Assembly: GCA_021791535.1 (NCBI GenBank)
Contig: JAJYWI010000024.1
Location: forward strand, 2,416 to 36,576
From: Microcaldota archaeon
GTDB taxonomy: Archaea > Micrarchaeota > Micrarchaeia > Micrarchaeales > Micrarchaeaceae
Direction: 5' to 3'
Length of the DNA stretch: 34,161 bases
Shown here: piece after piece, positions 12,376 through 28,562 of the stretch
Numbering within the stretch: position 1 is the stretch's first letter
Layout of the letters: each line of letters begins with the position of its first letter
Translations under genes and position numbers: made by a program
The notes under the pieces: generated by a model
What the model was told of the DNA's origin: nothing
Databases searched by the model: none
What the model saw: only the letters and a program-made list of their open reading frames with translations

Positions 12376-15054
12376 TTGGGGGAGAGCTTGCTTCATTACA
12401 GCAAGAGATCGCAAATAGCGCTAGAATTCATGATAATATATGCCATAGTGCTGATTGTATTCGTTGTTGTGTTCGCCCTGATAGCAAACGAGAGGTCGGT
12501 TGCGCTCGCTGCACAGCAGGCATCTGTAATGCAGCTCATATCCCAGAGCGTAGCTAGCTACATAAACCAGGCGATGCAAGCAGGCAGCGGCTATTCCGCG
12601 TTCGTGCCGCTCAGCGCAGGCATAGGCCTTGTCTCGTACAGCATTTCTATATCGACAACCGGGCTCGTCATAGCGAATACGACAGTTGGGAAGGAGATCA
12701 TAACCGGGATAGCGCAGAGCAACGCGCGCAACCTCTACATAAACGGCACGCTTGTATCTAGCGGCAACGGGATAAACGTATACAGGATACCTACCTATAC
12801 CGGCTATGTCAAGGTAGCGAATGCCGGCGGCAGCATATTCGTCGACGTCCCATCTCCCCAACCAGATAGCTTAGCCGGTCCACCCACACTTTCGCAGCCT
12901 GGCTCGGTAGTTGCGCCGTATTTCAACGGGGTGAACAGCCTGATTAGCGCCCCTGCCAACAGTGTGCTCACGATAGGCAACAGTATATCGCTCGACGCGT
13001 GGGTTGAGATAAAAAGCCTGAAAACAAGCTCAGCGGCACCTTATCTCGACAATCCAATAATCGGTGAGATAAGTTCCACGGCACAGCCGTTCATGCTCTC
13101 AATAACGAACGGAGGGGCACCGATATTCCTGATGAACTGGGGAGGGGCGTCCAAGCTCATTGGCCAGAATTCGATAGTACCTGGCGCTCTGTACAATATA
13201 GCGGCAACGTACAACAAGAGCTCTGGGATTGCAGAGCTGTACGTCGATGGATTATCGGTAGCCACATCGAAACCAGGCGTAAGTATAACTGGATCAGCCA
13301 ATGTGATAATAGGAGGTTCGCCTGCAAACGCCACGTACCTTAACGGATATGTGATAAACGCGCAGATCTACAACACGTCGCTGCCTGCAGACCAGATCGG
13401 ACAGATATACTCGTCTGGGCCTGCTGCGGCGCCTGCAACTAGCCTTGGCAACCTGGTGGGATGGTGGCCGCTCAACGGCAACCCGAACGATTACAGCGGT
13501 TACGGCAACAACGGGGCAGCCAGTGACGTATCTTACCAGTACTCGGTTGACACCCTGGCAGGCATATCAACGCTTGGAGGCGTGGCGGCGCCTGGCGTGC
13601 CGGTGGGATTCTTCACCTCGAAAAACCTGCTGGGTGGTTCCAACAGCGTGGCAACCAACACTACATCTGCAGGGCAGCAGAGCGCGCTGCTTACAGCGAA
13701 CGGTTTCTCAGGCAATGCTACGATATACGCGGAATCGTTCAATGGGAACCTTACCACTGTAGGTAACCTGGTGGGATGGTGGCCGCTGAGCGTGAACGAT
13801 AGCCTAAGTGTGCCTGACTTCAGCGGCAAGGGGAACATCGGCTCTTTAGTGGTAGGATCCTCGCAGTCGAAGGCTGTATACCTGCCTGTCACGTCAAACA
13901 CAGCATTCAACGCAGCCAATTTCAACGGAGCAAACAGCTATGTGCAGATCAACAATACCCAACAGCTCCAGTTGTCGAACGTGACGATATCAGGATGGGT
14001 CGATTATGCTGGACCTGCATCTAGCACATACGGCTGGCTGGTGGCAAAGGAGGATGCCTGGGGCGTAGGCGCGTGCGGCCCGACCCTATTGGTGTGCTAC
14101 TATGATTGGGGCGGCACAGGGGAACATGAATCCTCTGTTTCACTCAGCACCAACAAATGGTATTTTCTTACTGCTACGGTAGCGAACGGGATAGCAGAGA
14201 ATGTCTACCTGAATGGCGTAAATGTGCTAAGCAACTCTGTTTCAATATCGAACCAGAACTTTGGCGTCCAGATTGGATACGGCAACGCAGCAGGGGAGCT
14301 GCTTGATGGCGCGGCAGCGAATATACAGATATACAACAGGGTACTATCACCTGGGCAGATTTCCAAGCTGTACTTAGACGGGCTGCCGGGAGCGCCTCTG
14401 CCAAACTCTGGCTTGGTGGGATGGTGGCCGCTCAACGGCAACGCGAACGATTATGCGAGCCAGGCATACATATCATCAAACGCTATCGATATAACATTCA
14501 ACTCAATAAGCTACAACAACACTGCAAAGATAGGCCAGCAGCTTGCCGCGTTCTCCCTCCAAGGAACCGGCGTGGAGATACCAAGCGCACCTAACTCCAT
14601 ACTCGGATCAGGGCCGAAGACTGCCGCGGCGTGGGTATATCCGATCAGCTTCAACTCGACATCGCCGTGCTACGTGGTGAGTATTGGAAGCCAGAGCACA
14701 GACGGCTATGGATTCAATCTCATTATAAACAATAATGGATATCTTGGCGCAAGCACAGCTACCGATGTTCAAACACCAGTATACAGCCAACTCCATGTGC
14801 CCCTGGACAGATGGAGCTTCGTTACGCTCAGCTATTCTAACAGCAGGTACGGCGTGTCGCTGGACGGAGTCCCGGATACGCTGTCGTTATCCACGGCGCA
14901 GAACCTGCAACAGTCCAGTTGGTATATCGGAAGCTGCGTTGCAGGGATTGCGGATGCGCAGATATACAACACATCGCTTTCGCAATACCAGATACAGCAG
15001 CTCTACCTGCAGGGCATGCCGCAGGCAGCTGGAATGGACACGACGCTAGGGTGA
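12376..15054 (+). CDS. Pilin-like N-terminus fused to three LamG domains (surface adhesin)
   Basis: 892 aa. Residues 10-18 (KRS-QIALEF) followed by a 20-residue hydrophobic helix look like an archaeal class III (type IV pilin) signal, with processing expected before Q13. After a pilin-like domain (about 40-160) come LamG/concanavalin-like domains at about 180-345, 515-662 and 725-878, separated by linkers containing LVGWWPLNGNxNDYS. LamG jelly rolls bind glycans or proteins, so the product is probably an extracellular adhesin presented on a filament. The start is TTG 12376, or TTG 12388 after a GGGGGAG element. It is the first gene of a tightly packed operon. Domain 2 shares long near-identical DNA with the fourth gene. 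Confidence 0.8.
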   Translation: MGESLLHYSKRSQIALEFMIIYAIVLIVFVVVFALIANERSVALAAQQASVMQLISQSVASYINQAMQAGSGYSAFVPLSAGIGLVSYSISISTTGLVIANTTVGKEIITGIAQSNARNLYINGTLVSSGNGINVYRIPTYTGYVKVANAGGSIFVDVPSPQPDSLAGPPTLSQPGSVVAPYFNGVNSLISAPANSVLTIGNSISLDAWVEIKSLKTSSAAPYLDNPIIGEISSTAQPFMLSITNGGAPIFLMNWGGASKLIGQNSIVPGALYNIAATYNKSSGIAELYVDGLSVATSKPGVSITGSANVIIGGSPANATYLNGYVINAQIYNTSLPADQIGQIYSSGPAAAPATSLGNLVGWWPLNGNPNDYSGYGNNGAASDVSYQYSVDTLAGISTLGGVAAPGVPVGFFTSKNLLGGSNSVATNTTSAGQQSALLTANGFSGNATIYAESFNGNLTTVGNLVGWWPLSVNDSLSVPDFSGKGNIGSLVVGSSQSKAVYLPVTSNTAFNAANFNGANSYVQINNTQQLQLSNVTISGWVDYAGPASSTYGWLVAKEDAWGVGACGPTLLVCYYDWGGTGEHESSVSLSTNKWYFLTATVANGIAENVYLNGVNVLSNSVSISNQNFGVQIGYGNAAGELLDGAAANIQIYNRVLSPGQISKLYLDGLPGAPLPNSGLVGWWPLNGNANDYASQAYISSNAIDITFNSISYNNTAKIGQQLAAFSLQGTGVEIPSAPNSILGSGPKTAAAWVYPISFNSTSPCYVVSIGSQSTDGYGFNLIINNNGYLGASTATDVQTPVYSQLHVPLDRWSFVTLSYSNSRYGVSLDGVPDTLSLSTAQNLQQSSWYIGSCVAGIADAQIYNTSLSQYQIQQLYLQGMPQAAGMDTTLG
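13453..13500 (+). repeat. GWWPL linker repeat family in LamG genes
   Basis: A DNA repeat encoding LVGWWPLNGNxNDYSG recurs at 13453, 13768, 14413, 17571 (diverged) and 19352. Each lies after a LamG domain or spacer. Copies at 13453, 14413 and 19352 share about 30 almost identical bases (GGTGGGATGGTGGCCGCTCA core). Confidence 0.7.
13921..14078 (+). repeat. Near-identical LamG repeat shared with 18866-19020
   Basis: 13921-14078 and 18866-19020 are almost identical over about 155 bp, differing by a few bases and a 3-base difference near CTAGCA. A second shared block links 14263-14353 to 19202-19292. Synonymous positions are conserved too, which indicates recent duplication or gene conversion between the first and fourth genes of the operon. 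Confidence 0.85.
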
Positions 15055-15060
15055 GTATGA

Positions 15061-15603
15061 TTGGACAACTTTAGGGCACAGTTCTGGAGCTTTGACGCGC
15101 TCTTCGCGATGATAATATTCCTGGCAGCGATAACCATATTGGCAATCGCATGGCTGGACATAAGCAACCAGCTTTCACTTTCTACAGGCGGGACGAGTTA
15201 CATAATGCAACTGCAGTCAGAGGCGGTGGCGCAGAACCTCATGTCTACAGGCAGCCCTGCAAACTGGCAGTCTGCTGTAAACACATCATCGGTAAACACT
15301 TGGACTGGCATAGGGATAGGGCTTGCGCGGTCGCAGGGGTCGTCCAGCCTCTCGACCGCGAAGATGTACGCGCTCATGTCCATGGTGGACTACAACTACT
15401 CTATGGCTGGGCAGGGGCTCGGCACAAGCTTCAACTACTACATAATTATAAACAGCAGCACACTCAACATAACGATGGGCAGAAGCCCGCTGACAGGCAA
15501 CTCTGTCACGACGTACATAAGCAGGAAGAGTGCGTTCATAAACGGGGCGCCTGCGCAGATAACCGTAATGGTGTGGAGCGGCAGCGTATCGTCGGTGAGC
15601 TGA
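15061..15603 (+). CDS. Pilin-like secreted protein
   Basis: 180 aa. The N-terminus AQFWSFDALFAMIIFLAAIT is a hydrophobic helix with the F-S-F-DAxFA pattern also seen in the next gene (FIFTIDAAFSL). It resembles minor pilins or archaeal secreted proteins that are inserted by an uncleaved or class III-type signal. The remainder is a Ser/Asn-rich beta domain with N-x-S/T sequons (VDYNYSMA, NSSTLNITMG) and no LamG domain. The apparent start is TTG 15061, six bases after the stop of the upstream gene. Its TGA overlaps the ATG of the next gene (TGATG). The likely role is a small filament or assembly subunit beside the large adhesins; this is an inference. Confidence 0.65.
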   Translation: MDNFRAQFWSFDALFAMIIFLAAITILAIAWLDISNQLSLSTGGTSYIMQLQSEAVAQNLMSTGSPANWQSAVNTSSVNTWTGIGIGLARSQGSSSLSTAKMYALMSMVDYNYSMAGQGLGTSFNYYIIINSSTLNITMGRSPLTGNSVTTYISRKSAFINGAPAQITVMVWSGSVSSVS

Positions 15604-17777
15604 TGGAGCAAAACGTTAAGGGATTCATTTTCACGATTGACGCCGCGTTCTCGCTCGTAGTTGCTGGCGCAGCCATAGGCATACTAGCATATGTGCACTT
15701 CGCAGGCACGCCGGTATTCCAGCCGCTGACCTCGCAGGCGTTCAGCGTCGCGCAGAGCCTCATAGAGACCAGGCTTGTGACAGCTGCTGATGCGGGATCG
15801 CTCTATGCGATGGCCGCCGCAAACGCAACCTTGGGCTCTGCAAGCACGTGGCAGTCGTTCGACAACGGAGGCCCGTTGTCATCATCGTCGTCAGTGGGGC
15901 CGCAGCTCCCGCAGCTGCTTTTCACATACGCAGCAAGCGGCCAGATAAGCTCTTCTGTTTCGGTCGGATATGGCATGGCTGCGTTTGCATCAGGCAACAC
16001 CTTGTATGTGATAAACGCCACGACGGGCAGCCTAATCATGAGCAAGTCCGTCTCCGGAAATGTCCTCTACCCTATAATCTACAACAACATGATAATATAC
16101 GGCAACTCGACCGGCTATGTCTCTGCAGTGCAGCGGAGCGGTTCCGCCAGCTGGCATTCTGTCCAGCTGCCCTCTGCGCCGTCAACGCCGATGTCCATAG
16201 GCGGCGGCTACATCGCATTCGGTGCGGGGGCCAACATAGTGCTCATGAGCCCGCTCAACGGCAGCTTTTCCCACAGCTCACTGCCTAACATAGCCACAGT
16301 ACCGGCATACGGATCGGGAGAGTTCGTAGTCAGCACAAGCGCGCCGGCATCGCAAAACTATATACTTGGTTTTGCGGTAGTTGGAGGCTCGTTGCAGCAG
16401 ATCTGGAGCTATAAATGGTCGGTAACTACATCAACCACCCCGTTGATAGCAGGCAATCTCGTAGTAGTTGGCAGCGCTAACCAGATAGTGGGGCTAAGCC
16501 TGAGCGGGCTCCAGCTCTGGTCGATAACAGTGCCTGGCGTAAGCGCATTCGGGGGCGGGACACTGGAGGGCGGCAACGTCTACTTCCCGATGCAGACTAA
16601 TGTATGGCAGATAAACATAAGCTGCGGCTGCAAAAGGGCTGGATTCCACATAGAGAGCACGCTATCAAACTCCACGCCATCTTCAACAGCTGGAGCCTTC
16701 TACATGCTAGCGGCAAACGACCATTTCCTGTCGTATAGGCTATCAAACAGCAGCTCTCCGGCATGGGACACGGAGCTGCCGCAATCTAGCTCTGCGCCAT
16801 ACCAGGATGTGGCGCTCGCCTATGGCAACGCATACATATCTGCTGGCAACACAGTATACGTGTTCGGCACATGCAGGGCGGTACCAGGCGGTAGCGTGCT
16901 GCAAGCGATAGCAAGCATGTACGTGAATGGCTATGGGGGGTGTGCAACAAGCCTCCTCAACAGCTCGTACAGCGCGCCCAACATCGGAGTATACATAAAC
17001 GGCACGTATGCGCCGTCGCTTTACCTAGCCCGGTTCAACGGCATAAACAGCTACGTCAGCGTTCCAAGCTCTGCGTCTTTGGACTCGCCAAACACCGGAA
17101 TAACGATATCGGCATGGGTGCGCTTCAACTCAAACGCATACCCGTATGACCAAGCTATCGTGAACAAGACGAACGACTATGCATTAGAATATGTAGGTAG
17201 CAATGCCAACGGTTGTGGGACGGCGTATGGTCTCCTCTTCCTGGCCTCCAACTTCTGGGGCTGCTCCTACGAGGTATCGTTCAAACCTGTAGCAAACAGA
17301 TGGTATTACATCACTGCGGTATGGAGCTCTGTGACTAATGAGGCGAGCATCTATGTGAACGCTTCGCTGATAGGCTCTTTCCAGACAACAGGCACGATAT
17401 CGTTCGACAACAACAACCTCGGCATAGGGAATGATGCAAGCGGAAGCGGACTGCCGTTCAACGGGACGATTTCTGACCTGCAGATATATGACGTCCCGCT
17501 CCAGCAGCGTGGTATAACCTCCCTTTACGATAAGGGCATCGCAGGCGTGCCTGCGAACTCCACGATAGCCGGATGGTGGCCGCTGCTTGGCGACACCAAC
17601 GACTACAGCGGCAACGGCAACATCGGGTATCCATCCGGGGTTACATACGCAAGAGTGAACTTCACTCCGCCATCACTCATCTCAGCGTATCAGGTCAGCG
17701 CCGCGGCATTCCCGATGAGCCTCAGCACCAGCGCAAACGCGCCTCTATACAATGTTAGCGTGGTATTGTGGAGATGA
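15603..17777 (+). CDS. Pilin-like N-terminus with PQQ-like beta-propeller and LamG domain
   Basis: 724 aa. It begins KGFIFTIDAAFSLVVAGAAI, a pilin-like membrane helix. Residues about 90-430 contain repeating beta strands typical of PQQ/quinoprotein-like propeller blades (NTLYVINATTGSLI, GYVSAV, NLVVVGSANQIVGLSLSGLQ). A LamG domain follows at about 478-640 (FNGINSYVSVPSSASLDSPN through QIYDVPLQQRGI), then the GWWPL linker near 657. The frame is open upstream to 15150, but that part lies inside the previous gene in another frame. ATG 15603 overlaps the previous TGA. Its own stop overlaps the next ATG (ATGA). It is probably exported and cell-surface bound, with an adhesive or sensory role. Confidence 0.75.
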   Translation: MEQNVKGFIFTIDAAFSLVVAGAAIGILAYVHFAGTPVFQPLTSQAFSVAQSLIETRLVTAADAGSLYAMAAANATLGSASTWQSFDNGGPLSSSSSVGPQLPQLLFTYAASGQISSSVSVGYGMAAFASGNTLYVINATTGSLIMSKSVSGNVLYPIIYNNMIIYGNSTGYVSAVQRSGSASWHSVQLPSAPSTPMSIGGGYIAFGAGANIVLMSPLNGSFSHSSLPNIATVPAYGSGEFVVSTSAPASQNYILGFAVVGGSLQQIWSYKWSVTTSTTPLIAGNLVVVGSANQIVGLSLSGLQLWSITVPGVSAFGGGTLEGGNVYFPMQTNVWQINISCGCKRAGFHIESTLSNSTPSSTAGAFYMLAANDHFLSYRLSNSSSPAWDTELPQSSSAPYQDVALAYGNAYISAGNTVYVFGTCRAVPGGSVLQAIASMYVNGYGGCATSLLNSSYSAPNIGVYINGTYAPSLYLARFNGINSYVSVPSSASLDSPNTGITISAWVRFNSNAYPYDQAIVNKTNDYALEYVGSNANGCGTAYGLLFLASNFWGCSYEVSFKPVANRWYYITAVWSSVTNEASIYVNASLIGSFQTTGTISFDNNNLGIGNDASGSGLPFNGTISDLQIYDVPLQQRGITSLYDKGIAGVPANSTIAGWWPLLGDTNDYSGNGNIGYPSGVTYARVNFTPPSLISAYQVSAAAFPMSLSTSANAPLYNVSVVLWR

Positions 17778-20302
17778 GAAACAAGAGAGGGGTATTGCTG
17801 ACATTGGCGATGCTTGTCCTATTTATACTCATGCTTGGCGAGCTTTCAAGCTATGTTGACATAAGCATCAGCTACGAACAGCTCGCTTCAGCAACCTCTG
17901 CAGCGTTCAGCTCCTCGGCCCTGCTGAACTTCATAAGCAGCGGCTCCGGCAGCTTCCTTGCGGCTAGCCTGAATAATTCGCTAAAAGCACTTACGGTTTA
18001 CGAGTCCACGCCGTCATTGAGGAAGTACCATTTCATAAACAACACAGCATATGCGCTGACCAGCCTGATGGACAACGGGATTATATACGGGACTGATATG
18101 TCATCATACATGGGAGGGGCTATGCTAGTCAACTACACCTCTGCGCTCGAGAGGTTGGCGTCGCTGCAGGGCGGCAGCTTCGCCATCAGCAACCTATCCA
18201 TCAGCGTCTATCAGGGAGGGCCGTTGAACATCACTGCCAAACTGACCGGCCTTGTGACGCTGAACCTGAGCACCGGGATAATCAACTACCCAATCTCATC
18301 AACAGCTAACGTAAGCATAAACGGGACGCAGAGCCTGCTTGGCGCCGAGAGGGGCGCCACATCTTACGTGACAGGCGCGGCGCCGCCCCAAACTATTGTA
18401 GGGAATACGAAAGCGCTTGCCGGAAGCAGGAGCCCGTTCATCTTCGCGTACGGCACCGCCATATACATAGGGGGCACGCCGACATGCAGCAACGTGCCGT
18501 CAGGATTCCAGAACGCAAACTATATACTGGTCACCCCTAATGCTGGCTCGCTCTCTTCGAACATATGCGGTATGGGCGGCCTGGTCACAAATTCATTGGG
18601 GTCGCTGACACCGCTCTTCCCTTACCTTATCTACCAGTCTGGCTTCATATCCCCTAACGTGATAGGCAACGGCACATCCGTGCTTCTTGATGGATCGGCC
18701 TTGACGCTTCTGAACCTCACACCAGTGCAGGCAGGCATCCAGAACGGCTACTATTATCCTGCGTCTGGCGCACCCTCATACCTGCAGCAGTCGCAGCAAC
18801 AGGGATCCGTAGGATCCGGGCAGGGCTCTTTCAGCCTAGGCGCCCTTAACACCAAGTATGCGCATTTCAACGGAGCAAACAGCTATGTGCAGATCAACAA
18901 TACCCAACAGCTCCAGTTGTCGAACGTGACGATATCGGGATGGGTCGATTATGCTGGACCTGCATCTAGCATAGGCTGGCTGGTGGCAAAGGAGGATGCC
19001 TGGGGCGTAGGCGCGTGCGGCAGCTCGTTAAACCCCTGCTTCGAAAACTGGGCAGCCAGCACGCAATACACATCATCAACTTCACTGAGCACGAACAATT
19101 GGTATTTCATTACTGCAGTGATCTCAGGCGGGATCGAAACCGTCTATGTTAACGGAGTTAATGTGCTGAGCGACCCGAGCTCGGTATTGAACCAGAACGT
19201 TGGCGTCCAGATTGGATACGGCAACGCAGCAGGGGAGCTGCTTGATGGTACGGCAGCGGATATACAGATATACAACAGGGCACTATCACCTGCCCAGGTG
19301 TCTCAGCTCTACATTAATGGCCTGGATGGCGCACCTCTCTCGAACGCGAGCTTGGTGGGATGGTGGCCGCTCAACGGCAATGCGAACGACTATTCCGGAG
19401 GGAACAACAACGGCACAGCACAGAATGTAATATACACCAATGCAGCAGGGTACACTGCAGATCCAATATTCCCAAACCTGCCAAACCCTTACAACACCAG
19501 CGTGGTGAAAGGTGTGCTCAACTGCGCCAACCTGAACCAGTGCGGCAACATGTCGCTAAGCCACCTCTACCTAGGACCGCGGGCGCTTGCGGCGCCGAAC
19601 GGAACAACGCAGGACGAGGCAGCCGCGCTCGGGGTGATTAACGGGACAATCCCGTGGTCAATCGCTTTTGCCAACAGCGCATACGTGCAGGTGCCAAACG
19701 TAGAGGCGCTGAACCTCTCATCCCCAGTGACGATATCGGGATGGGTCGATTATGCAGGACCTGCATCTAGCATAGGCTGGCTGGTGGCAAAGGAGGATGC
19801 CTGGGGCGTAGGCGCGTGCGGCAGCTCGTTAAACCCCTGCTTCGAAAACTGGGCAGCCAGCACGCAATACACATCATCAACTTCACTGAGCACGAACAAT
19901 TGGTATTTCATGACGGCCGTTATATCCGGGGGTACTGAAACCGTATACGTCGATGGCGCAAATGTGCTGAGCGACCCGAGCTCGGTATTGAACCAGAACG
20001 TTGGCATCCAGATTGGATACGGCAATGCAGCAGGGCAGAGCCTCAATGGCAAGGCCACTGATATACAGATATACGCCAATGCCCTGACGCCCGCCCAGGT
20101 GCAGAGCCTTTACCTGAACAACAGCATCAGCGGCGTGACGCCCGTAGCTTACTGGCCTCTCTCTGTGCCATACCAAGGAATGCTGAACCAGACGCAAGAC
20201 ATAATAGGCAACAACAATGGCTACATCAGGAATTCCTCTGGGATATGCACTGTAAAAAGCATGATTACTGGCGCGTGCGGCGCATCGATAGCACAGACGT
20301 GA
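17774..20302 (+). CDS. Membrane-anchored protein with two LamG domains
   Basis: 842 aa. The N-terminal anchor (RGVLLTLAMLVLFILMLGEL) precedes a Ser/Asn-rich domain (about 35-190), a unique region (190-345), LamG A at about 365-513, a GWWPLNG linker near 527, and LamG B at about 630-779 ending with AYWPLSVP. The two LamG domains contain a 185-bp nearly perfect direct repeat. ATG 17774 overlaps the upstream stop as ATGA; GTG 17768 is an alternative. The TGA abuts the stop of the convergent secretion gene at 20303. As the last gene of the operon, it is probably another surface adhesin of the same system. Confidence 0.78.
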   Translation: MRNKRGVLLTLAMLVLFILMLGELSSYVDISISYEQLASATSAAFSSSALLNFISSGSGSFLAASLNNSLKALTVYESTPSLRKYHFINNTAYALTSLMDNGIIYGTDMSSYMGGAMLVNYTSALERLASLQGGSFAISNLSISVYQGGPLNITAKLTGLVTLNLSTGIINYPISSTANVSINGTQSLLGAERGATSYVTGAAPPQTIVGNTKALAGSRSPFIFAYGTAIYIGGTPTCSNVPSGFQNANYILVTPNAGSLSSNICGMGGLVTNSLGSLTPLFPYLIYQSGFISPNVIGNGTSVLLDGSALTLLNLTPVQAGIQNGYYYPASGAPSYLQQSQQQGSVGSGQGSFSLGALNTKYAHFNGANSYVQINNTQQLQLSNVTISGWVDYAGPASSIGWLVAKEDAWGVGACGSSLNPCFENWAASTQYTSSTSLSTNNWYFITAVISGGIETVYVNGVNVLSDPSSVLNQNVGVQIGYGNAAGELLDGTAADIQIYNRALSPAQVSQLYINGLDGAPLSNASLVGWWPLNGNANDYSGGNNNGTAQNVIYTNAAGYTADPIFPNLPNPYNTSVVKGVLNCANLNQCGNMSLSHLYLGPRALAAPNGTTQDEAAALGVINGTIPWSIAFANSAYVQVPNVEALNLSSPVTISGWVDYAGPASSIGWLVAKEDAWGVGACGSSLNPCFENWAASTQYTSSTSLSTNNWYFMTAVISGGTETVYVDGANVLSDPSSVLNQNVGIQIGYGNAAGQSLNGKATDIQIYANALTPAQVQSLYLNNSISGVTPVAYWPLSVPYQGMLNQTQDIIGNNNGYIRNSSGICTVKSMITGACGASIAQT
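18926..19110 (+). repeat. 185-bp direct repeat, copy 1 (copy 2 at 19727-19911)
   Basis: 18926-19110 and 19727-19911 align without gaps and differ at about one base by eye (TGCT/TGCA). The period is 801 bp, one LamG unit. A further similar block is at about 19160-19237 and 19961-20038. Conservation of every codon position indicates very recent duplication or conversion rather than protein-level selection alone. Confidence 0.88.
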
Positions 20303-21298
20303 TTACGCTGCAGGTGTGATGCCAGCGAAAAGCCCTGCTATGAGCTTCGCTATGATCAGATAAATCCCTAGACCGCCCAATATGAACAGCGGAAGATACT
20401 TTATGCCTCGCATAGCCGATCCTGTTGATATCGAAGACATTATCAGCCCTGCAAAACCTGTTATCGTTATTATGGCTGCAATTGAGAAGTACCTGTAAGT
20501 ATTTATGCTTATGTGCGGCGGCGATGGTTTCAGGAACGACACGCCTATCGTCGGGAGCCCTCCTGGGTTAGCGGCTAGTATTCCCTTCCAGACGGTATCG
20601 GTGACACTTATCATCTGGCCAGTAAGACCATAGAGCACAGGTGCAGCTATGACACCAGCAAATGCTATGAATATGCTGTACATGAAGAGCTGGCTCGACA
20701 CCTCCTTCTGGATCATCTGCTGGCCGCGTATGTCCTTGCTTACCTGGTCGAGCAGGTCCGCCATTGCACCGCCATAGCGCAGCGACTCGGTGATCATCTT
20801 GACAGTGTGGTTGAGCTGCCTTGACCTGTACTTCGCAGCCATTCCATTCAGAGCGTTCGCAAGCGTCTCGCCACCGAACACCCTCCTAGACATGTCCTTT
20901 ACGTCATTGGAGAAGAACGTGAATTCCGGCCTTGCCGCCATCATCATTGCCCTGTCAAGGGAGAGCCCGCTTCTCAGGTTCGCCGATGCTATCTGCAGGT
21001 AGTCAGGCAGCATGCTCTCCATGCCCATGCGCCTCTTGTCTATCCTATACTCCAGGAATATGTATATGATGGCTATGTAGAACGCCGCAGTACCTGCGCC
21101 GATGATGAAGGCAATGGGTGCGCTGGTAGTGTGAGTGACGGTGAGCAGGAAAGAGACGGCTATGAGTATTACCAGCGCTCCTATTATGGCGATGCCAAGC
21201 ATGCGGTTCACGCTGCTTTTAACTCCAGCAAGGTCCATCTCGGCGGAGAGCCGCCTGGCCAGCCCGCGCGAGACAAGCCTCTCGAAATTTATGGCCAT
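20303..21298 (-). CDS. tadC: Type II/IV secretion platform protein, T2SF domain (TadC/ArlJ-like), second copy
   Basis: 331-aa integral membrane platform protein. N-terminal TM helices at about 37-85 flank a cytosolic T2SF domain: MLPDYLQIASANLRSGLSLD (about 100-119), then GGETLANALNGMAAKYRSRQ, ITESLRYGGAMADLLDQVSK and DIRGQQMIQKEVSSQLFMYS. C-terminal TM helices follow (IFIAFAGVIAAPVLYG, the 265-290 region and the end). It would sit over the ATPase and drive pilin insertion. ATG 21298 follows the upstream stop by four bases; a TTG at 21313 would overlap. It is the last gene of the pilus operon. With one T2SF domain it pairs with the preceding paralog, unlike archaellum ArlJ, which carries the duplicated domain in one protein. 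Confidence 0.85.
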   Translation of the reverse strand: MAINFERLVSRGLARRLSAEMDLAGVKSSVNRMLGIAIIGALVILIAVSFLLTVTHTTSAPIAFIIGAGTAAFYIAIIYIFLEYRIDKRRMGMESMLPDYLQIASANLRSGLSLDRAMMMAARPEFTFFSNDVKDMSRRVFGGETLANALNGMAAKYRSRQLNHTVKMITESLRYGGAMADLLDQVSKDIRGQQMIQKEVSSQLFMYSIFIAFAGVIAAPVLYGLTGQMISVTDTVWKGILAANPGGLPTIGVSFLKPSPPHISINTYRYFSIAAIITITGFAGLIMSSISTGSAMRGIKYLPLFILGGLGIYLIIAKLIAGLFAGITPAA

Positions 21299-21302
21299 AG
21301 CA

Positions 21303-22418
21303 TCACATAGCAAATACAGGCCTTGATGACCTTATCAATTGCAGGAATATCACCTGCAAGAAGACTATCCCGACTATCGCTGCCTCGAGCAGCGCGACGT
21401 TAACAGTAAACACAGATATGAAGGTGGTCAGTATGGTGGCAATCGCTATGCCCATGCTTGGCAGTATCACGCCGAAGAGCATGTAGAACATCGCTATCGC
21501 GTTCAGCCTCTGCCCATACCTCCTGAGCGATATCATGCGCTCTTCGGACAACTGGTCCGTCACACTCTGCAGCGATGCCACTATGTCGGCTCCGGCCTTT
21601 ATGCTGGCGGATACCTGGAGCATTATCCTCCTGAATGACTGGCTCTTCGTCTCAGACACAGTCTGGTCTATCGCCTCCTCAAGCGACATACCAAGGTTGG
21701 ACTTCTCAGTCACCTTGGCAAATTCCTTGCTGGCATCCCCGTATCCTGAGCTGACAGAGACTATCGCATTGTAGAGAGGCATGCCAGACCTTAACGATAT
21801 TATCATGTTCCTGGCGGCGAACAATATGTCGCGCTCTACGTTCTTGGCCGCTATCTCCTCGCTCCTGAGCGGATATCTAAGGAACGAATTGAATGCGAAC
21901 CTGTTCACGACGTAGCCTATAAGTACTGTGAGAACTAGCGCTACTGGCAGCACCACTCCGGCCTTCACAAGGACAAGCAGCATAGCCGCAGCTATGACGA
22001 CCGCGACTATTATCGATGCTATTAACATGCGCTGTATGAAATCGTAGAGGCTCTCCCTCATGCGCCTCTGCAACAGCATAGGCTCTATCTTCCTGTTCTT
22101 TATCGCTAGCTTCTCTATGTAGTGGCGCCACGCGCTTGACGCACGGCTCTGCATTTTTTTCTGCACCTGCTGCTGTGACTGTTGCGGCTGCGCTGGTTTT
22201 TCAGCAGGCTGCACTGGCTGGGGGGCCGGTCTCTGTTGCGGCTGTGGGACAGGCCTCTGCGGCTGGGCGGCAGGTCCAACGATTTGCTGGGGCTTCGGCT
22301 GCCGCTTCGCCCCGCCGCCGAACAGCGCAGACAGCCCCTTCTTCGGCTTAGGCTGCAGCTCTATCCTCTTGCCCTCTACATTTATCACTTTAATTTCCTT
22401 TTTCTTGAAAAGCCCCAA
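21303..22418 (-). CDS. Type II/IV secretion platform protein with Pro/Gln-rich cytosolic tail
   Basis: 371 aa. Residues 20-95 are a Pro/Gln-rich, low-complexity cytosolic extension (PQPQQRPAPQPVQPAEKPAQ and similar). TM helices at about 130-175 follow, then a T2SF domain with NMIISLRSGMPLYNAIVSVS, EEAIDQTVSETKSQSFRRIM and VSASIKAGADIVASLQSVTD. C-terminal TM helices follow at about 305-360. Together with the next gene it provides two T2SF subunits, as in Tad-like pili. The tail may bind the ATPase or a partner. The start is TTG 22418, directly after the upstream TGA, with GGTGA a few bases before. Confidence 0.83.
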   Translation of the reverse strand: MGLFKKKEIKVINVEGKRIELQPKPKKGLSALFGGGAKRQPKPQQIVGPAAQPQRPVPQPQQRPAPQPVQPAEKPAQPQQSQQQVQKKMQSRASSAWRHYIEKLAIKNRKIEPMLLQRRMRESLYDFIQRMLIASIIVAVVIAAAMLLVLVKAGVVLPVALVLTVLIGYVVNRFAFNSFLRYPLRSEEIAAKNVERDILFAARNMIISLRSGMPLYNAIVSVSSGYGDASKEFAKVTEKSNLGMSLEEAIDQTVSETKSQSFRRIMLQVSASIKAGADIVASLQSVTDQLSEERMISLRRYGQRLNAIAMFYMLFGVILPSMGIAIATILTTFISVFTVNVALLEAAIVGIVFLQVIFLQLIRSSRPVFAM

Positions 22419-23087
22419 TCATTCACCTGCCTTCTCCGCGCTCGTTAGCGCGGCAGCCACCGCTTCTATCCTCTGGTCTCGAAGCTCCATCAGCTGGTAT
22501 TCATCAGCGCTTGGCAACCTGCCCTTCTTGAGCTGCTTCTTCTCAGCATTGACCTGCTCAACGAGCCCGTATAGCTCGCTGGCAACGGTATCGAGCTCGT
22601 CGCCGCGCAGCGCCTTGGCGTTTATGGCGTCGAGGAGGCGCTCCAGCTCCGCGACCTGGTCAATGAGCGAGAGGTTAGGCAGCACAAGGTTCGCAGCTTT
22701 CTCCCTCTTCAGTTTGTGCTTGCCGATTTTGGGTATCTTTACAGGCAGAGATTTTGCAAGCTCGACAAGCTCCTTACCAGCATATAAGTTTGCCCCCTCT
22801 TTCTGCTCTGTCGGCAGCTGCGCAAGCTCCTCCTGCTTCACCTGCGGCGGCGGTGGGGCTACAGTCTGCGCGGCGGGTGCGGCCTTCGGCACCCTCGCTT
22901 TGACCCGCTCTATTTCGTTTATCACAGCAAGCATATCCTTGTATGATGGCGCTTTCCTGTCTGGCTCATAGGCGAAACTGCCAGATATATCCACAGCTGG
23001 GTTCCCCGCAGAGCTAGCCGCGCCCTCAATCTGCTCTATCCGCTTCAGCAGCTTGGCGTACGCGCTCTCTGCCGCTTGGTCAGCCAT
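22419..23087 (-). CDS. Helical accessory protein of the pilus operon
   Basis: 222 aa, not recognised. It is soluble and helical: an N-terminal helix (AESAYAKLLKRIEQIEG), a Pro/Ala linker (PKAAPAAQTVAPPPPQVKQE, about 87-106), a basic stretch (KIPKIGKHKLKREKAANLV), and two C-terminal helices that could form a coiled coil (QVAELERLLDAINAKALRGD, ELDTVASELYGLVEQVNAEK). ATG 23087 is chosen because GGGAGG lies at 23095-23100 with a 7-nt spacer. It overlaps the upstream 96-aa gene by 8 nt. Its position between the ATPase and platform genes suggests a cytosolic cofactor of the machine. Confidence 0.65.
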   Translation of the reverse strand: MADQAAESAYAKLLKRIEQIEGAASSAGNPAVDISGSFAYEPDRKAPSYKDMLAVINEIERVKARVPKAAPAAQTVAPPPPQVKQEELAQLPTEQKEGANLYAGKELVELAKSLPVKIPKIGKHKLKREKAANLVLPNLSLIDQVAELERLLDAINAKALRGDELDTVASELYGLVEQVNAEKKQLKKGRLPSADEYQLMELRDQRIEAVAAALTSAEKAGE

Positions 23088-23370
23088 GTGACATCCTCCC
23101 ATCAATAAACGGTGTGGGCTTCCTCTGTTTGAGAAAATCCTTGTTTTCCGATATGATATCCTTTATTATTTTATTTGATAACCTTCTCTTTATTCCAAAT
23201 CCTTTATCCTTCGCATACCCCTCTTTTGCCTTTTCAAGAAGTTTGCTGCAGAAGCCTTTCGGGATAAACAACTGAAATCCTATATCCACCTGTAGTTTAG
23301 GATTCTGGTATAACCTTGATTTATACGCCATTGTGGAATCCATGTTGTTTATATTATCATTCATGTTCAT
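23080..23370 (-). CDS. Hypothetical 96-aa basic protein inserted in the pilus operon
   Basis: Not recognised. It is lysine-rich and soluble, with KAKEGYAKDKGFGIKRRLSN and KIIKDIISENKDFLKQR. It is noticeably more AT-rich than the genes on either side. Its C-terminal PTPFID codons lie in a 21-bp repeat (23103-23123) that recurs at 23404-23424 just upstream of the gene, as if a segment of about 300 bp had been inserted or duplicated. The stop overlaps the next start by 8 nt. It may be a small nucleic-acid-binding protein, but nothing visible proves that. Confidence 0.5.
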   Translation of the reverse strand: MNMNDNINNMDSTMAYKSRLYQNPKLQVDIGFQLFIPKGFCSKLLEKAKEGYAKDKGFGIKRRLSNKIIKDIISENKDFLKQRKPTPFIDGRMSHG

Positions 23371-23424
23371 ATACCTTTGTTCTGCGGTCCGCTTTCATCA
23401 CGCCAATGAACGGTGTGGGATTCC
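23103..23424. repeat. 21-bp imperfect direct repeats bracketing the 96-aa gene
   Basis: CAATAAACGGTGTGGGCTTCC (19 of 21 identical) occurs at 23103-23123 and in variant form at 23404-23424, 301 bp apart. The enclosed segment is nearly all of the AT-rich 96-aa gene. The layout fits an insertion with a long target duplication, or an unequal duplication that left a remnant peptide (N-PTPFIG) on the ATPase side. Confidence 0.6.
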
Positions 23425-23442
23425 ACACTCACTCTGCAACCA

Positions 23443-24942
23443 TTAAAATATATCTCTCGAAAATGCTGCATTGTCCCTTACAATGCCCAGAACTTTGCTC
23501 TTATTCTTATAATAGTTGGCAACTACAAACCCAGCGTCGTCCACTGACACGACGTCGTTCTTCACCATCCAGTCGAGGATGGATGCCTTCTCCACTATGT
23601 CGTCGTCTATCTCCTTCGCGGTATATCCGGAATACAGCATCAGCGTGTCGGCCAGTCTCGTCATATCACCTATCTGCGGAAAACTGTCGTTCCTCGGGTT
23701 CCATTTGTACAGCACGTTGACATCCCCGCTCCTGAGCACCTCGCCGTATTCGAGTATGCGCCTTATGCCCTTGCTCCTGTGCCTGAATGTGACCATGACG
23801 GCTCCAAGCGCGTTCAGCATTATCTTCGGGACCTCTATCGGGGGGTTTGTTAGCCTCACTATGGTATCCTGCGCGTTATCGGCGTGCACGGTACCATACA
23901 CAGCGTGGCCTGTGTGTATCGCTTCAAAGAGGGTCTCGGCGTCCTTCTTAACCCTTATCTCCCCCACAACGACTATGTCCGGCCTCTGCCTAAGCGCGTT
24001 TATTGTAAGGTCGTAAAGCGTCACCTCTCCCTTGCCTTCGGGGTTAGGCTGCCTGGTGACCATAGGCACCCATTGGAGGAAGCTGGGCAGAGTGAGCTCC
24101 CTGGTCTCCTCGACAGATATGACCCTGTGGCTCGGCGGGAAGAATATGCTTGAGGAGTTGAGCAGGCTGGTCTTGCCACTTGCAGTACCTCCCGATATCA
24201 AAAGGCTTATCTCGTTCTGTATGCACAGCCACACTACCGCGCCTATCTCTGAGCTCACCGTCTGGTTCTTTATCATAGCAGTCATTGTCCACGGGTTCTT
24301 CGCGAACTTCCTTATTGTGATGGTGTTGCCGACTTGCGAAACGGGGTAGAGCGTGGCGTTCATCCTAGAGCCGTCGGGCAGCACAGCGTCCATGAGCGGA
24401 GAAAGGTTGTTTATCTCCCTGCCAACCCGCCTGCCTATCTGCTCAGCGTAATCATATATCATCTCCTCGCTGGCCAACTTCATGTTTGTCTTGCACCAGC
24501 CAAACTGCTTGTGGAACACCCATATCATGTTCGCTGAGCCGTTGACGGTTATCTCCTCAAGGTTATCATCAGCCAACGGTGCCTCGAGGTCACCGAGCCC
24601 CAACATCATGTTTATTATGTAGGCGATCAAGAGCGATTTTGTTTCTGGAGAGGTGCCTGGCAGGTACTTGTCTATCAGTATGCTGCTCGTCTCGACGTAC
24701 TTCCTGTTTATCTCATCCAGGTATTTCCTGTCCTGTATACGCGTAGTGTCAACTGTCACCATTGCGACAAGCTCTCCCCTTAGGGAGAAAAGGAGCAATT
24801 TGGTCGGGTCGCTCAGCCCTGGTATGCTCATGTTGTATATCGGTACGTAATCGTCAGTCTGTGCTATCCTTACATTTATCGGCATGCCGTTGGCATTAAG
24901 GCTGTACTCAGCAAGAACATTTTCTGCGTCTTTTTGCTCCAA
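23443..24942 (-). CDS. tadA: Type II/IV secretion ATPase (TadA/ArlI/VirB11-like)
   Basis: 499-aa hexameric ATPase that powers pilin assembly. Walker A GGTASGKT is at 251-258. The Asp box VISVEETREL is at about 274-283. Walker B DIVVVGEIR is at about 322-330. The His box HTGHAVYGTVHA is at about 343-354. The N-terminal domain carries the usual DDNLEEITVNG block (125-135) that precedes the nucleotide-binding domain. The start is TTG 24942, ten bases downstream of the upstream stop; no ATG occurs before residue 20. The operon also encodes a wHTH/coiled-coil protein and two T2SF platforms, so a Tad-like or adhesive pilus rather than an archaellum is more likely (no arlC-H genes are visible). Confidence 0.92.
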   Translation of the reverse strand: MEQKDAENVLAEYSLNANGMPINVRIAQTDDYVPIYNMSIPGLSDPTKLLLFSLRGELVAMVTVDTTRIQDRKYLDEINRKYVETSSILIDKYLPGTSPETKSLLIAYIINMMLGLGDLEAPLADDNLEEITVNGSANMIWVFHKQFGWCKTNMKLASEEMIYDYAEQIGRRVGREINNLSPLMDAVLPDGSRMNATLYPVSQVGNTITIRKFAKNPWTMTAMIKNQTVSSEIGAVVWLCIQNEISLLISGGTASGKTSLLNSSSIFFPPSHRVISVEETRELTLPSFLQWVPMVTRQPNPEGKGEVTLYDLTINALRQRPDIVVVGEIRVKKDAETLFEAIHTGHAVYGTVHADNAQDTIVRLTNPPIEVPKIMLNALGAVMVTFRHRSKGIRRILEYGEVLRSGDVNVLYKWNPRNDSFPQIGDMTRLADTLMLYSGYTAKEIDDDIVEKASILDWMVKNDVVSVDDAGFVVANYYKNKSKVLGIVRDNAAFSRDIF

Positions 24943-24951
24943 TCAAACTAC

Positions 24952-26232
24952 CTACTTCTTTTTCTTGCCAGCTATCTTGCCTGCAGCAGACTCGGCGTTC
25001 CCCACCTTGTCCTCTATGTTAGAGACCCTAGATCTTGCAGCTGATGCCCGCTTCTGCAGGTCGCTAAACGCCGCCGTCTTCTGCTCGGTGGTTGCTGATG
25101 AGAGCGCACTGAGGGCGCGCAGCTTGTTTGTTATGTCGTTTACGTCCTGGCGAGCGTCTGCTATCTCCCTCTCCAGGCCTGCCATCTGGCTCTTTAGCGT
25201 GCTAAGAGTATCGTCGATCTCTGCGGCTTCGCCGAAACCGGACTTCAGCCTCGCGACCTTCTCGCTTATCTCTTTTGATATGGCTGCTGCTGATGATTTC
25301 TGCGTGTTGAGCTCCTCGCTCATCTTCATGTAATAGTTGTTGAGTTCGACCCTGGAATCGCGTAGCCTACGCAGCTGCTTCTCCCGTTCCTTGGAGAAGC
25401 TGTTCAGCTCCTCAACGCTGGAGCTTATGGCTCTGACGCGGTCCTTGAGCTGGCGCTCTACGGTGTCAGCCTGTTTTGCGTACTCATTTAGCTTAGCGTC
25501 AATCTCCTTCTTAGACTGCTCTATCTGCCTCTCCAGCGCCTTGGACTGCTCTATCACGCTCCTCCTTATCTGGTCCATCGATTCGGAGCTGCTCTTGCCG
25601 ACCGCGGATATCTGGGAGTTTATGCTTGCAATCGATTTAGATATGGATTCGAGTTCCTGCCGGGCGTCGTCGACGCCCTTCGCGCCTCCTTCGCCGCTTA
25701 TGCCGCCGAGCCTGGTACTGAGCTCGATGACCCTCTTGTTTATCTCGTCATATATCTGCTCGGCTTTCTTCGCCATCTGCTCAAAGCCTCTATTCCTCTG
25801 CTCAACTGTTGCATATATGCTGTTGAGGTCGGCGATTGCGCGGCGTATTTCCGGCATCTCGCTGGCCTCGGCCTTCTCTGCGGTCGCAACAGACCCTTTT
25901 ATCGATTCTAGTGTCTCTGTAAGCTTGTCTAGGGAAAGCATCTGCGACTCGCTCTGCGCCATCAGCCCTGAGATCTCTGCCTCGGCCCTTGAGTGCTCCG
26001 TCGCCTCCTGCTCTGCGGAGAGCGTCGATATGGTGAGGAACATCTTTCCTACTTCATAGGTGATTTTGACTATGTTGCCTTTCTCAAGCACCTTGGCCCA
26101 GTTCTCCACTATCGACTGGTCGACTCCTAGAGCCACCGACACGGAAGCAAGATCCATCTTTCCTTTCTTCTTGAGTAGCTCGACCAGAGAATCTATCGTC
26201 GTCTTAGTCGATGGTGGCGCGTCGTCTGCCAT
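24952..26232 (-). CDS. Winged-helix plus long coiled-coil protein
   Basis: 426 aa. Residues about 10-70 (TIDSLVELLKKKGKMDLASV, SVALGVDQSIVENWAKVLEK, then GNIVKITYEVG) have the pattern of a winged helix with recognition helix and wing. Residues 75-415 are an almost continuous heptad-like coiled coil rich in Glu, Lys and Ser, ending KIAGKKKK. It has no TM segment. It may be a scaffold around the ATPase or a DNA-linked regulator of the operon. As first gene it lies next to a 22-bp palindrome that could be its own operator. The ATG at 26232 is the first codon of the operon. Confidence 0.7.
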   Translation of the reverse strand: MADDAPPSTKTTIDSLVELLKKKGKMDLASVSVALGVDQSIVENWAKVLEKGNIVKITYEVGKMFLTISTLSAEQEATEHSRAEAEISGLMAQSESQMLSLDKLTETLESIKGSVATAEKAEASEMPEIRRAIADLNSIYATVEQRNRGFEQMAKKAEQIYDEINKRVIELSTRLGGISGEGGAKGVDDARQELESISKSIASINSQISAVGKSSSESMDQIRRSVIEQSKALERQIEQSKKEIDAKLNEYAKQADTVERQLKDRVRAISSSVEELNSFSKEREKQLRRLRDSRVELNNYYMKMSEELNTQKSSAAAISKEISEKVARLKSGFGEAAEIDDTLSTLKSQMAGLEREIADARQDVNDITNKLRALSALSSATTEQKTAAFSDLQKRASAARSRVSNIEDKVGNAESAAGKIAGKKKK

Positions 26233-26279: not shown

Positions 26280-26972
26280 CTAGAATGCGCGTCTGTAGAA
26301 TAGCGAGAAGAAAAGGGCTATCACAAGCATGAATATTATCGTTGATAGCGGTATCGGGGTGAATATCAGCATCAGCACGAAAATCGTGCCCATGGTGGTG
26401 AGGTAGATCGGCGCGCTCCACGCAAGCACCTTGCTGCCATCAAGCGGGAATATCGGAAGCATGTTGAAGAAGGCAAGGAGTATGCTTATGAATATTATGA
26501 AGTAGAGCGCCTCGCCAATGTAGGAACCTGCGGAAGGGGCGAGAATGTAGAAGAGCACGAGCGACGCGCCAAACACGACGAAATTCGTGAGCGGGCCTGC
26601 AAGCGAGACTATGCCGTTCTCTCTCCTAGTGAAATTATGGGCGTATATCATCGTAGCTCCAGGTATGCCAAGGAGGAAGCCGAACGCGCCAGTGGCGAGG
26701 GTTATGCCGAGGCCCATGAATGAGGTGCGAAAGCCAGCTATTGCACCATAGTGCTGCGCTACGAATTTGTGCATCAGCTCGTGGAGGACGAAGCTCAGCG
26801 TCACGCCTATCGCAGCTATCGGGAGGAGGAGCAGGAAGTTGCCTGCGAATTTCGAATTGCCGGCTCCGAATATGCCACCAGAGAGGGTGAGCGACATGGC
26901 TATGATAAGCACAATATCGGCTATGATAATGTCCCTGACCTCGATATGCCAGGTGGTGTTCTCGCGCATCAT
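26280..26972 (-). CDS. M50 family (site-2-type) membrane metalloprotease
   Basis: 230-aa polytopic protease. The zinc motif HELMH lies at about 64-68 inside a TM helix (SFVLHELMHKF). The third ligand is in FFNMLPIFPLDGSKVL near 169-184, the family's NxxPxxPLDG motif. Surrounding hydrophobic segments give about six TM helices. It cuts substrates within the membrane, possibly anchored regulators. ATG 26972 (or 26969) is preferred to a TTG at 27011 because TTTTATACC lies 25 nt upstream. That TATA box is shared with the divergent tRNA-Gln. Some M50 proteins of this type are non-canonical Rip1-like; the substrate is unknown. Confidence 0.88.
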   Translation of the reverse strand: MMRENTTWHIEVRDIIIADIVLIIAMSLTLSGGIFGAGNSKFAGNFLLLLPIAAIGVTLSFVLHELMHKFVAQHYGAIAGFRTSFMGLGITLATGAFGFLLGIPGATMIYAHNFTRRENGIVSLAGPLTNFVVFGASLVLFYILAPSAGSYIGEALYFIIFISILLAFFNMLPIFPLDGSKVLAWSAPIYLTTMGTIFVLMLIFTPIPLSTIIFMLVIALFFSLFYRRAF

Positions 26973-26991
26973 CAATAATGATTGGGCAACA

Positions 26992-27001
26992 GGTATAAAA
27001 T
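26992..27001. promoter_or_regulatory. Shared bidirectional TATA box (tRNA-Gln / M50 protease)
   Basis: GGTATAAAAT is centred about 30 nt before the tRNA-Gln 5' end and 25 nt before the protease ATG on the other strand. Confidence 0.6.
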
Positions 27002-27026
27002 AGGTTAGCAAATAATATAGTTGCGC

Positions 27027-27141: not shown

Positions 27142-27561
27142 TTATCCTTCACTAAGAATCTTTAGTAGATTGCTGGTGGTAAAAACTGATATCACTTTCT
27201 GCATCTTGAAATGTCTGTCGTCACTCCATATGCCGTCATTGTCTATATAAAGTGCTAACGCGATAAACGGCGTGTCATCCGGATCTATCTTATCCATTAT
27301 CTTCATCGCGGTTTCAAACTTTACCTTAAGCGCAGAATCATCAACAACATATATACGTTTGAAAAACAGGGCAAGTAGCCCATCAAGATCCTTTTCGGAT
27401 ATTTTTGCCTTTTTTAGTATCTCGACCCTATGTTCGCGAAGCTCTTTTCTTGTGAATTCTGCGGTCACCAGCTCGAATTTGTTAGAGAGTATTACCTTCC
27501 TGCTTGCTCCATCCTTGATGAGCGCGGCTATTATCCTATTAGTATCAGTTATGAGCCTCAT
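27142..27561 (-). CDS. vapC: PIN-domain toxin, VapC-like
   Basis: 139-aa PIN nuclease. Acidic residues are at D6 (LITDTNRII), E40 (FTRKELREH), D95 ([13 protein letters not shown]) and D114 (WSDDRHF), the expected metal site. VapC toxins cut RNA, often tRNA or rRNA, when their antitoxin is lost. The start overlaps the vapB 3' end by 17 nt. The pair sits just downstream of tRNA-Gln. Confidence 0.85.
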
Positions 27562-27778
27562 GCACTAGCCTTTTGCGAATCTCGTGCTTTATCTCGTGCC
27601 CTATCCTCTCTGCGTCATCTTCGGTAAGCTCGCTCTTGCTAAGGAGCCTGTCCGCTGCACGGATCTCCTCGAGCCTCCGCTTTATGGCCTGCCTGGCTAC
27701 TTCGCTCCACTTCAGCTCTTTGTGTCTTTTCATTTCCTTGAACAGTTCTACAGGTACTGATAGTGTTATGTTGACCAT
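27545..27778 (-). CDS. vapB: VapB-like antitoxin
   Basis: 77 aa. ATG 27778 gives [20 protein letters not shown], then [20 protein letters not shown]: a beta strand and two helices of a ribbon-helix-helix domain, followed by a charged helix that would wrap the toxin. The frame extends upstream to 27826, but that part lies in the promoter. ATTTATA on the minus strand (27811-27817) would start transcription about 10 nt before the ATG. Confidence 0.82.
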
Positions 27779-27785
27779 ACATATC

Positions 27786-27815
27786 ACACATATAATTATG
27801 TGCAAACACATATAA
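27786..27815. promoter_or_regulatory. Operator candidates upstream of vapBC
   Basis: The direct repeat ACACATATAA occurs at 27786-27795 and 27806-27815, 20 bp (two helical turns) apart. CACATA-TAAT-TATGTG forms a palindrome at 27787-27802. They overlap the vapB TATA box and likely transcript start, as expected for RHH autorepression. Confidence 0.55.
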
Positions 27816-27840
27816 ATACTTTGCATTATTCAGAAACAGG

Positions 27841-28136
27841 CGATTTCAAAGGCCCATACCATAGTACAAGGTATAGAAAGCGTTGAAAATACGATATTAA
27901 AACCCATTTCTAATAGGGCTGGTTCATAACTTGAATTTGTTCAATATAGGGCGGAGTTACGTGAAGAGGGGAGACCGGCCCCACTCTTAAGATATGATAT
28001 ATGGCGTGGGGAGAGGGCTTACTTTTATACCAGGCTTGGAGGATTTGCCAAAGCCAATCCCATCATGGATAGGCCATCACACATCGCAATTTAAAGGCTT
28101 GTTTTGCATATTAAGTTAGGCATTGGACGTGGTTCT
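27841..28136 (+). other. Intergenic leader region with competing hairpins
   Basis: No gene seen in about 300 bp. AGAGGGG (27965-27971) can pair with CCCC-AC-TCT (27979-27987), while CCCCAC (27979-27984) can instead pair with GTGGGG (28006-28011); the two folds exclude each other. TATA-like sites occur at about 28023-28030 and 28089-28098; the second is about 44 nt before the trkA ATG. I could not match it to SRP RNA, RNase P RNA or a known riboswitch. Confidence 0.4.
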
Positions 28137-28562
28137 ATGGCTGAAAAACGTTTCGAGATACGCGACCACGTGATCGTGTGCGGCTTAGGCATGGTGGGCC
28201 GCAAGGTCGTTGAGATACTCCTGGAACACAATATAGGTTTCGTCGTAGTGGAGATTGACCCTCGTGCGGCAGCAAGGGCAGAGGAGTTAGGCTACAAGGT
28301 CATAAACGGCGATGCGACGGCGTCCAGGACGCTCCGCAGTGCCGGAATAATGAATGCGAAGGCCATAGCCGTAGTGATGGACAACGATGCAAAGAACCTC
28401 TTCACTGTGCTGACCGCAAGGGACCTCAACAAGAAGATATTCATAGCTACGCGCAGCAACGATGACTTCGTCAGGGAGAAGCTTGTGGACGCAGGCGCGG
28501 ATTACATCGTGATGCCGCAGAAGACCGCGAGCAAGGAGATAGTCAGGGAGCTCCTGAAGTAG
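28137..28562 (+). CDS. TrkA-N (RCK) domain protein, cytosolic
   Basis: 141-aa single RCK-N domain. RDHVIVCGLGMVGRKVVEIL contains an intact G-x-G-x-x-G loop. Beta2 ends VVVEIDP with its acidic residue. INGDAT and GADYIVMPQ follow as in TrkA/KtrA. It binds NAD(H) or ADP/ATP and gates a partner K+ channel or transporter. ATG 28137 is chosen over an upstream start at 28104, which lies between the TATA box and the ribosome-binding region. It is the first gene of a three-gene operon of the same fold; the other two carry membrane anchors. Confidence 0.85.
   Translation: MAEKRFEIRDHVIVCGLGMVGRKVVEILLEHNIGFVVVEIDPRAAARAEELGYKVINGDATASRTLRSAGIMNAKAIAVVMDNDAKNLFTVLTARDLNKKIFIATRSNDDFVREKLVDAGADYIVMPQKTASKEIVRELLK

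Follow-up and report, generated by a model that had tools for sequence, protein, structure and literature searches.

Apparent exchange of LamG modules as cassettes within predicted minor pilins at an Epd-like type IV pilus locus in Micrarchaeota

We analyzed a window of 34,161 nucleotides (nt) from contig JAJYWI010000024.1 of a Micrarchaeota metagenome-assembled genome (741 kb, 93% complete), in which a set of pilin-type genes with LamG modules meets the genes of a type IV pilus assembly machine. All coordinates are positions in this window, labels of the G000 type denote genomes, and L labels denote loci (Table 1). The pilin-type genes A, B, C, and D form a plus-strand run (12376-20302) that converges without a gap on a minus-strand machine run (20303-26232), with D ending at 20302 and F2 at 20303. 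An initial annotation had described four pilin-like genes, three of them with LamG or propeller domains, meeting tail to tail with an operon for an ATPase, two T2SF platforms, and two helical proteins, and all of these open reading frames (ORFs) were confirmed.

Table 1. Predicted features of the pilus locus and its surroundings (a slash in a motif marks the predicted cleavage site).
Feature	Position	Strand	Description
TATA-box-like TATATAAA	12346..12353	+	Read from sequence; 30 nt upstream of the TTG start of A
A	12376..15054	+	892 aa; minor pilin; class III signal KRS/QIALEF; pilin part aa 1-175
LamG module A2	13915..14373	+	Near-copy of D1 and D2
B	15061..15603	+	180 aa; small minor pilin; motif RA/QFWSFDALFAM; no adhesin domain
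C	15603..17777	+	724 aa; minor pilin; motif KG/FIFTIDAAFSL
D	17768..20302	+	844 aa; large pilin-like; motif KRG/VLLTLAMLVLF; pilin-like part aa 1-195
LamG module D1	18860..19312	+	
LamG module D2	19664..20113	+	
F2	20303..21313	-	Single-domain T2SSF inner-membrane platform, TadB/C-like
F1	21303..22418	-	Single-domain T2SSF inner-membrane platform
X	22419..23105	-	228 aa; helical, cytosolic; kept in the operon of relatives; no known domain
96-aa ORF	23080..23370	-	Between E and X; missed in the initial annotation; not part of the system
E	23443..24942	-	Assembly ATPase (TadA/VirB11/ArlI superfamily); T2SSE PF00437 3.7e-33
CC	24952..26232	-	Conserved N-terminal domain, then long coiled coil; first gene of machine operon
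M50 family membrane metalloprotease	26280..27011	-	Beside CC in most same-family genomes; association only

The adhesin-type domains are distributed over three of the four pilin-type proteins. A carries three LamG modules (aa 181-345, 514-666, and 724-877; Pfam 3.2e-44), C a PQQ/BamB-like propeller (aa ~61-475, 2.3e-12) followed by one LamG (aa 476-642, 5.3e-21), and D two LamG (aa 365-515 and 633-782, 7.6e-31), which together make up all six LamG domains detected by Pfam in the genome. The start of C was corrected: the ATG ORF from 15150 is over-long, and a pilin-type start (MEQNVKGF) lies at 15603. The N-termini, which the initial annotation had proposed to check against ordinary Sec signals, carry prepilin-peptidase-type motifs instead, and each motif is conserved across 24 genomes from two families. 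The consensus is ..QIALEF.IVYSFVLVVF.. in A (Q+1 invariant in all 24, with E/D at +5), K(A/G)QFWSFD.IFA..IF in B, KGF.FT.DA.FAL in C, and KG.LLTL.T.VLF.LML.E in D; the canonical class III pattern is fitted by A and by the stand-alone pilins described below. An AlphaFold model of B (predicted local distance difference test [pLDDT] 84.5) has a 57-residue N-terminal helix (3-60) followed by further helices and a four-stranded sheet, and the model of D (mean pLDDT 66.6) resembles it in N-terminal layout before continuing into LamG folds that match laminin, neurexin, and pentraxin structures. Among 245 genomes sampled from the phylum, 195 have a member of the B family; the similarity of B to haloarchaeal DUF7288/7285 was not significant.

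Adhesin domains attached to pilin-like N-termini had been regarded as uncommon, which does not hold for this lineage. Among the orthologues scanned, LamG was found in all 24 A, 22 of 24 C, and 22 of 23 D proteins, a propeller in 18 of the 24 C proteins, and DUF2341 in two of the 23 D proteins. Moreover, some relatives encode at least 10 stand-alone lectin-pilins of about 300 aa each (e.g., G007, G010, G042, G044, and G016, a single-contig genome of the same family that we treat as Mia14, Ca. Mancarchaeum acidiphilum). Most genomes of the window's family have an A protein with three LamG modules, the sampled genomes of a second family have one with four, and in five genomes, including Mia14, a second LamG replaces the propeller in C. 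Outside the order, A is a bare pilin of 130-176 aa, and one Aenigmatarchaeon has a C protein with a VWA domain. Hence, the modules are lineage-specific grafts onto an older minor-pilin set.

Comparison of closely related loci indicates that the LamG modules are replaced as cassettes within a conserved pilin frame. For example, G007 and G008 have 92% identical ATPases and 88% identical D pilin parts, whereas the two LamG modules of D are only 31% and 35% identical. Identity drops sharply at the module edges in both protein and DNA, giving two blocks of ~30-45% nt identity, while the D linker between these blocks is 85% identical and the LamG modules of A and C are 74-85% identical. Within the window, A2, D1, and D2 are near-copies of one another (75% aa identity for A2-D1 and 83% for D1-D2; in DNA, 48 nt are identical in three places and 108 nt match at 99%), and yet they are only 25-36% identical to the same slots in the sister species G001, although the ATPases of the two share 82% identity. 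LamG is generally the fastest-evolving part of these genes, and very fast point mutation under positive selection, rather than swapping, could also produce divergent modules. We consider this improbable given the confinement of the G007/G008 divergence to the LamG blocks of D on either side of a conserved linker, the near-identical copies in the window's A and D, and the observation that LamG pairs from different families can be more alike than the pilin domains that carry them.

The last point also suggests that module replacement extends beyond single genomes. There are 52 LamG pairs that reach 40% identity or more; 29 of them connect modules from different slots, and 17 connect modules from different families. 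Between families, LamG pairs reach up to 59% identity, whereas A pilin domains share 41% at most; D1, D2, and A2 of the window, for instance, are 51-56% identical to A4 of G047, a member of another family. In the G007/G008 pair, LamG in A and the pilin domain of A evolve at similar rates, so this excess identity between families points to lateral exchange. In a LamG tree, the gene label (A, C, or D) changes 58 times, hardly different from 62.6 at random, to which weak deep resolution contributes, and the argument for exchange is therefore based on close pairs. The LamG domains of A1, A2, C, and D are each followed by a 67-nt motif that encodes GWWPLNGN..NDY, and the peptide is found again behind LamG in stand-alone proteins; homologous recombination may use this motif as an anchor.

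The stand-alone lectin-pilins consist of a QSAMEYLMTYGWAIL pilin start, one LamG, and a GWWPLNGNANDYSG tail. Their pilin parts are 86-94% identical and their LamG domains 32-35% identical (medians per genome). No such gene was detectable in the window genome. A lectin-pilin cluster in Mia14 (C1:581-604 kb) contains four copies with equal LamG scores at a spacing of about 1,974 bp, which suggests recent tandem amplification. Stand-alone LamG pilins were considered as direct donors of the modules in A, C, and D, and this was rejected; the blastp matches in four genomes were mostly at 25-40%, and no specific recent donor was shown. Gene A of G010 is immediately preceded by two small, separate LamG ORFs (L117:118-1927), which may be loose cassettes or lectin-pilins.

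Module exchange between families requires some DNA transfer, and Undinarchaeota have been proposed to import DNA through pili (PMC7414124). Both points would fit a pilus that functions mainly in DNA uptake or as a conjugation-type device, with LamG as an incidental coat. Nonetheless, the two operons contain no DNA-binding or competence gene, and the heavy, conserved investment in LamG (in every A protein scanned) is better suited to adhesion, making such a device a distinctly unlikely explanation of the locus.

Of 60 relatives, 59 have the assembly ATPase E, and in 54 of these the copy is nearly full-length and 60-82% identical; matches of E in the PDB include 2oap (3e-68), FlaI (8e-58), and CpaF (6e-48). 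F1 and F2 have one T2SSF domain each (1e-14 to 1e-15) and are the sole T2SSF proteins of the genome; a second T2SSE-family ATPase, on contig C13, has an FtsY-like gene beside it and lacks a T2SSF gene in its vicinity. Relatives retain both CC and X in the operon. Pfam and PDB searches returned nothing for either protein beyond generic coiled coil, and Walker A motifs were absent from X (21 orthologues) and from CC, the N-terminal domain of which looks winged-helix-like by eye. Split platforms are shared by Epd-like archaeal pili and the bacterial Tad system (PMC6668835), and MIA14_0170-0177 of Mia14 has been listed as a Methanococci/Methanothermobacteria/Thermococci-type pilus system (PMC5498576). 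The latter is apparently the orthologue of the window machine, and its position is consistent with the G016 locus. Based on the two contiguous single-T2SSF platform genes and this literature placement of the Mia14 system, the machine is Epd-like and a candidate member of clade 1. The initial annotation, a Tad-like operon facing pilin-like adhesin genes in a DPANN-type archaeon, is supported in this respect as a type IV pilus machine with minor-pilin adhesins, although Epd-like is a more exact description than Tad-like. The pilus system itself is not new. LamG proteins have been reported as abundant in DPANN, and the abundance of LamG and its linkage to type IV pilus loci in Mia14 were noted previously (PMC5498576). 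What is new is the cassette behavior of LamG: the literature we found contains no description of LamG module swapping or of stand-alone lectin-pilin gene families.

The best NCBIfam model for E is FlaI (265 bits), which could suggest an archaellum (swimming) apparatus. However, this score is far under the FlaI cut-off of 550, no archaellin occurs among the Pfam-scanned genes of the window, an ArlJ-type double-T2SSF platform is missing from a genome whose T2SSF proteins are F1 and F2 only, and the operon has no ArlH-like ATPase (X and CC lacking Walker A). An archaellum is hence highly improbable.

A single A24 prepilin peptidase, which may be of the EppA or the FlaK type, is encoded in the genome, on contig C24 and away from the pilus locus (GxGD motif, PF01478 above cut-off). 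A gene for a long protein with YVTN-type propeller repeats adjoins it (L113:4000-6132). We rejected the view that the genome has no pilins besides A-D: profile PF04021 was blind to others (A was its only noteworthy match, below cut-off), and a QSAMEYL-type pilin profile identified seven more class III-type matches. Two of these lie in tandem on contig C14, and the major pilin is probably encoded by such a stand-alone, PilA-type gene away from the pilus locus.

The initial annotation treated linkage of the two operons in relatives as a test of their association. Of 39 related loci, 33 show the convergent arrangement, with zero to four genes between the operons. Several observations weigh against an Epd-like pilus with exchangeable modules, and one is that the operons lie apart in the remaining six genomes (G014, G025, G032, G048, G045, and G052). 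Relative to the predicted cleavage site, the acidic residue of B and C sits at +6 and D lacks one close to +5, so that processing may be unusual. A Foldseek search of the B model against the PDB returned no significant pilin match (best E 0.02, to ribosomal proteins), and no MinD/TadZ/FlaH-type secondary ATPase was found in the operon, to which this search was confined. In addition, deep LamG relationships are poorly resolved, making the number of swaps uncertain, and the filament itself is a prediction from gene content. Regarding the separated operons, four relocated sites were read. G014 and G025 have the complete A-B-C-D order, C and D persist in reduced form in G032, and G048 has B as its only recognized gene of the set. 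In G045 and G052, B alone was located, on another contig. The separation that the initial annotation had named as refuting its reading does occur in this minority of genomes, but all or part of a pilin set is still kept there, and the operon link is not refuted.

Some of these points, together with the very large size of A, C, and D for pilins (724-892 aa), would also fit Sec-exported, uncleaved, membrane-anchored adhesins that happen to lie beside an unrelated pilus operon, in particular the unusual acid positions in B, C, and D and the six separated loci. We regard this as unlikely. A K or R followed by G, A, or S precedes Q/F in A-C of both families, the leaders are very short (e.g., MKA/QFWSFD) and unlike Sec signals, the convergent pairing is widespread, the four genes have stayed together even where they moved (G014 and G025), and B has a pilin-like layout without any adhesin domain.

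Taken together, we favor an Epd-like pilus with a multivalent lectin tip, the modules of which are exchanged to alter cell-binding specificity, and assign this reading a probability of roughly 0.7. E would drive pilin polymerization via the F1/F2 platforms, helped by CC and X, after maturation of the pilins by the genome's single prepilin peptidase. A-D would be minor pilins, most likely located in a tip or tip-proximal complex, in which D, being large and without an acid at +5, may act as a GspK-like cap. GspK-type caps likewise lack an acid near +5. The LamG and propeller domains of A, C, and D may then form a multivalent lectin tip that attaches the cell to glycans on a second cell. LamG cassettes would be swapped in the conserved frame by homologous recombination, both inside one genome and after interspecies DNA transfer, thereby changing specificity. 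For host recognition and host switching in DPANN archaea, there are almost no molecular candidates. Module swapping in a fixed filament is the pattern expected if the modules choose the cells for attachment, and a conserved pilus that exchanges its lectin modules alone thus names the protein segments expected to carry host specificity. This could be tested in Micrarchaeota co-cultures, such as Mia14 with Cuniculiplasma.

Other features of the locus are less directly tied to the filament. The position of the TATA-box-like TATATAAA makes a leaderless transcript of A plausible. The 96-aa ORF between E and X is a probable N-terminal remnant of a TnpB-type transposase, resembling transposases of 443-446 aa in the same operon of G059 and G043 (1.8e-8 and 5.2e-8; transposase assignment by PHROG, 8.5e-98). 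These transposases are full-length and TnpB-like, and they lie inside the machine operon in two relatives of another family (L037:12687-14018 and L047:6095-7435). Beyond the metalloprotease gene, a PIN-domain protein (27142-27826, minus strand) with a small overlapping ORF upstream resembles a VapBC-type toxin-antitoxin pair. Neighbors kept in several genomes include a 304-aa membrane protein and three TrkA_N genes (30069-30983 and 28104-30072), as well as a 986-aa secreted-type protein with a C-terminal membrane helix (31051-34011, minus strand).

Among known systems, Epd-like or clade 1 type IV pili (Methanococcus maripaludis Epd, Makarova clade 1) share with this locus a TadA/VirB11-like ATPase, two contiguous single-T2SSF platforms, several minor pilins, large adhesin-type pilins, and stand-alone major pilins. 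They differ in that a MinD/TadZ ATPase is reported as often present, whereas the window locus has CC and X and no MinD/TadZ or EppA gene, and in that their adhesin modules are mostly DUF2341 rather than LamG and propeller. The bacterial Tad system shares the ATPase and the split TadB/TadC-type platform, but its secretin, RcpA/TadZ, and TadE/F are absent among the Pfam-scanned genes of the 34 kb window, and the window system is archaeal. In Streptococcus sanguinis, PilC (lectin) and PilB (vWA) have been modeled at the pilus tip, and PilC binds glycans (PMC9934059). As here, a class III pilin N-terminus is fused to a ConA-like lectin (PilC) or a vWA domain (PilB) in a proposed tip complex, although species and scaffold are unrelated; the window system has several LamG per protein, spreads its modules over three pilins, adds a propeller in C, and would bind glycans by analogy. 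The PilV shufflon of IncI plasmids (R64 and TP114) is likewise a type IV pilus minor-pilin adhesin with exchangeable C-terminal specificity modules. The window has neither a recombinase (among its Pfam-scanned genes) nor inverted cassettes, and exchange here would instead have taken place over evolutionary time, between genes and species. A broader and more tentative proposal is that, across an order of archaea that are probably host-dependent, the tip of one conserved pilus may be a changeable receptor-binding head, in which LamG cassettes move among the three minor-pilin genes, the stand-alone lectin-pilin families, and species, their turnover setting the host to which a cell can attach, which we liken to the swapping of phage tail fibers.

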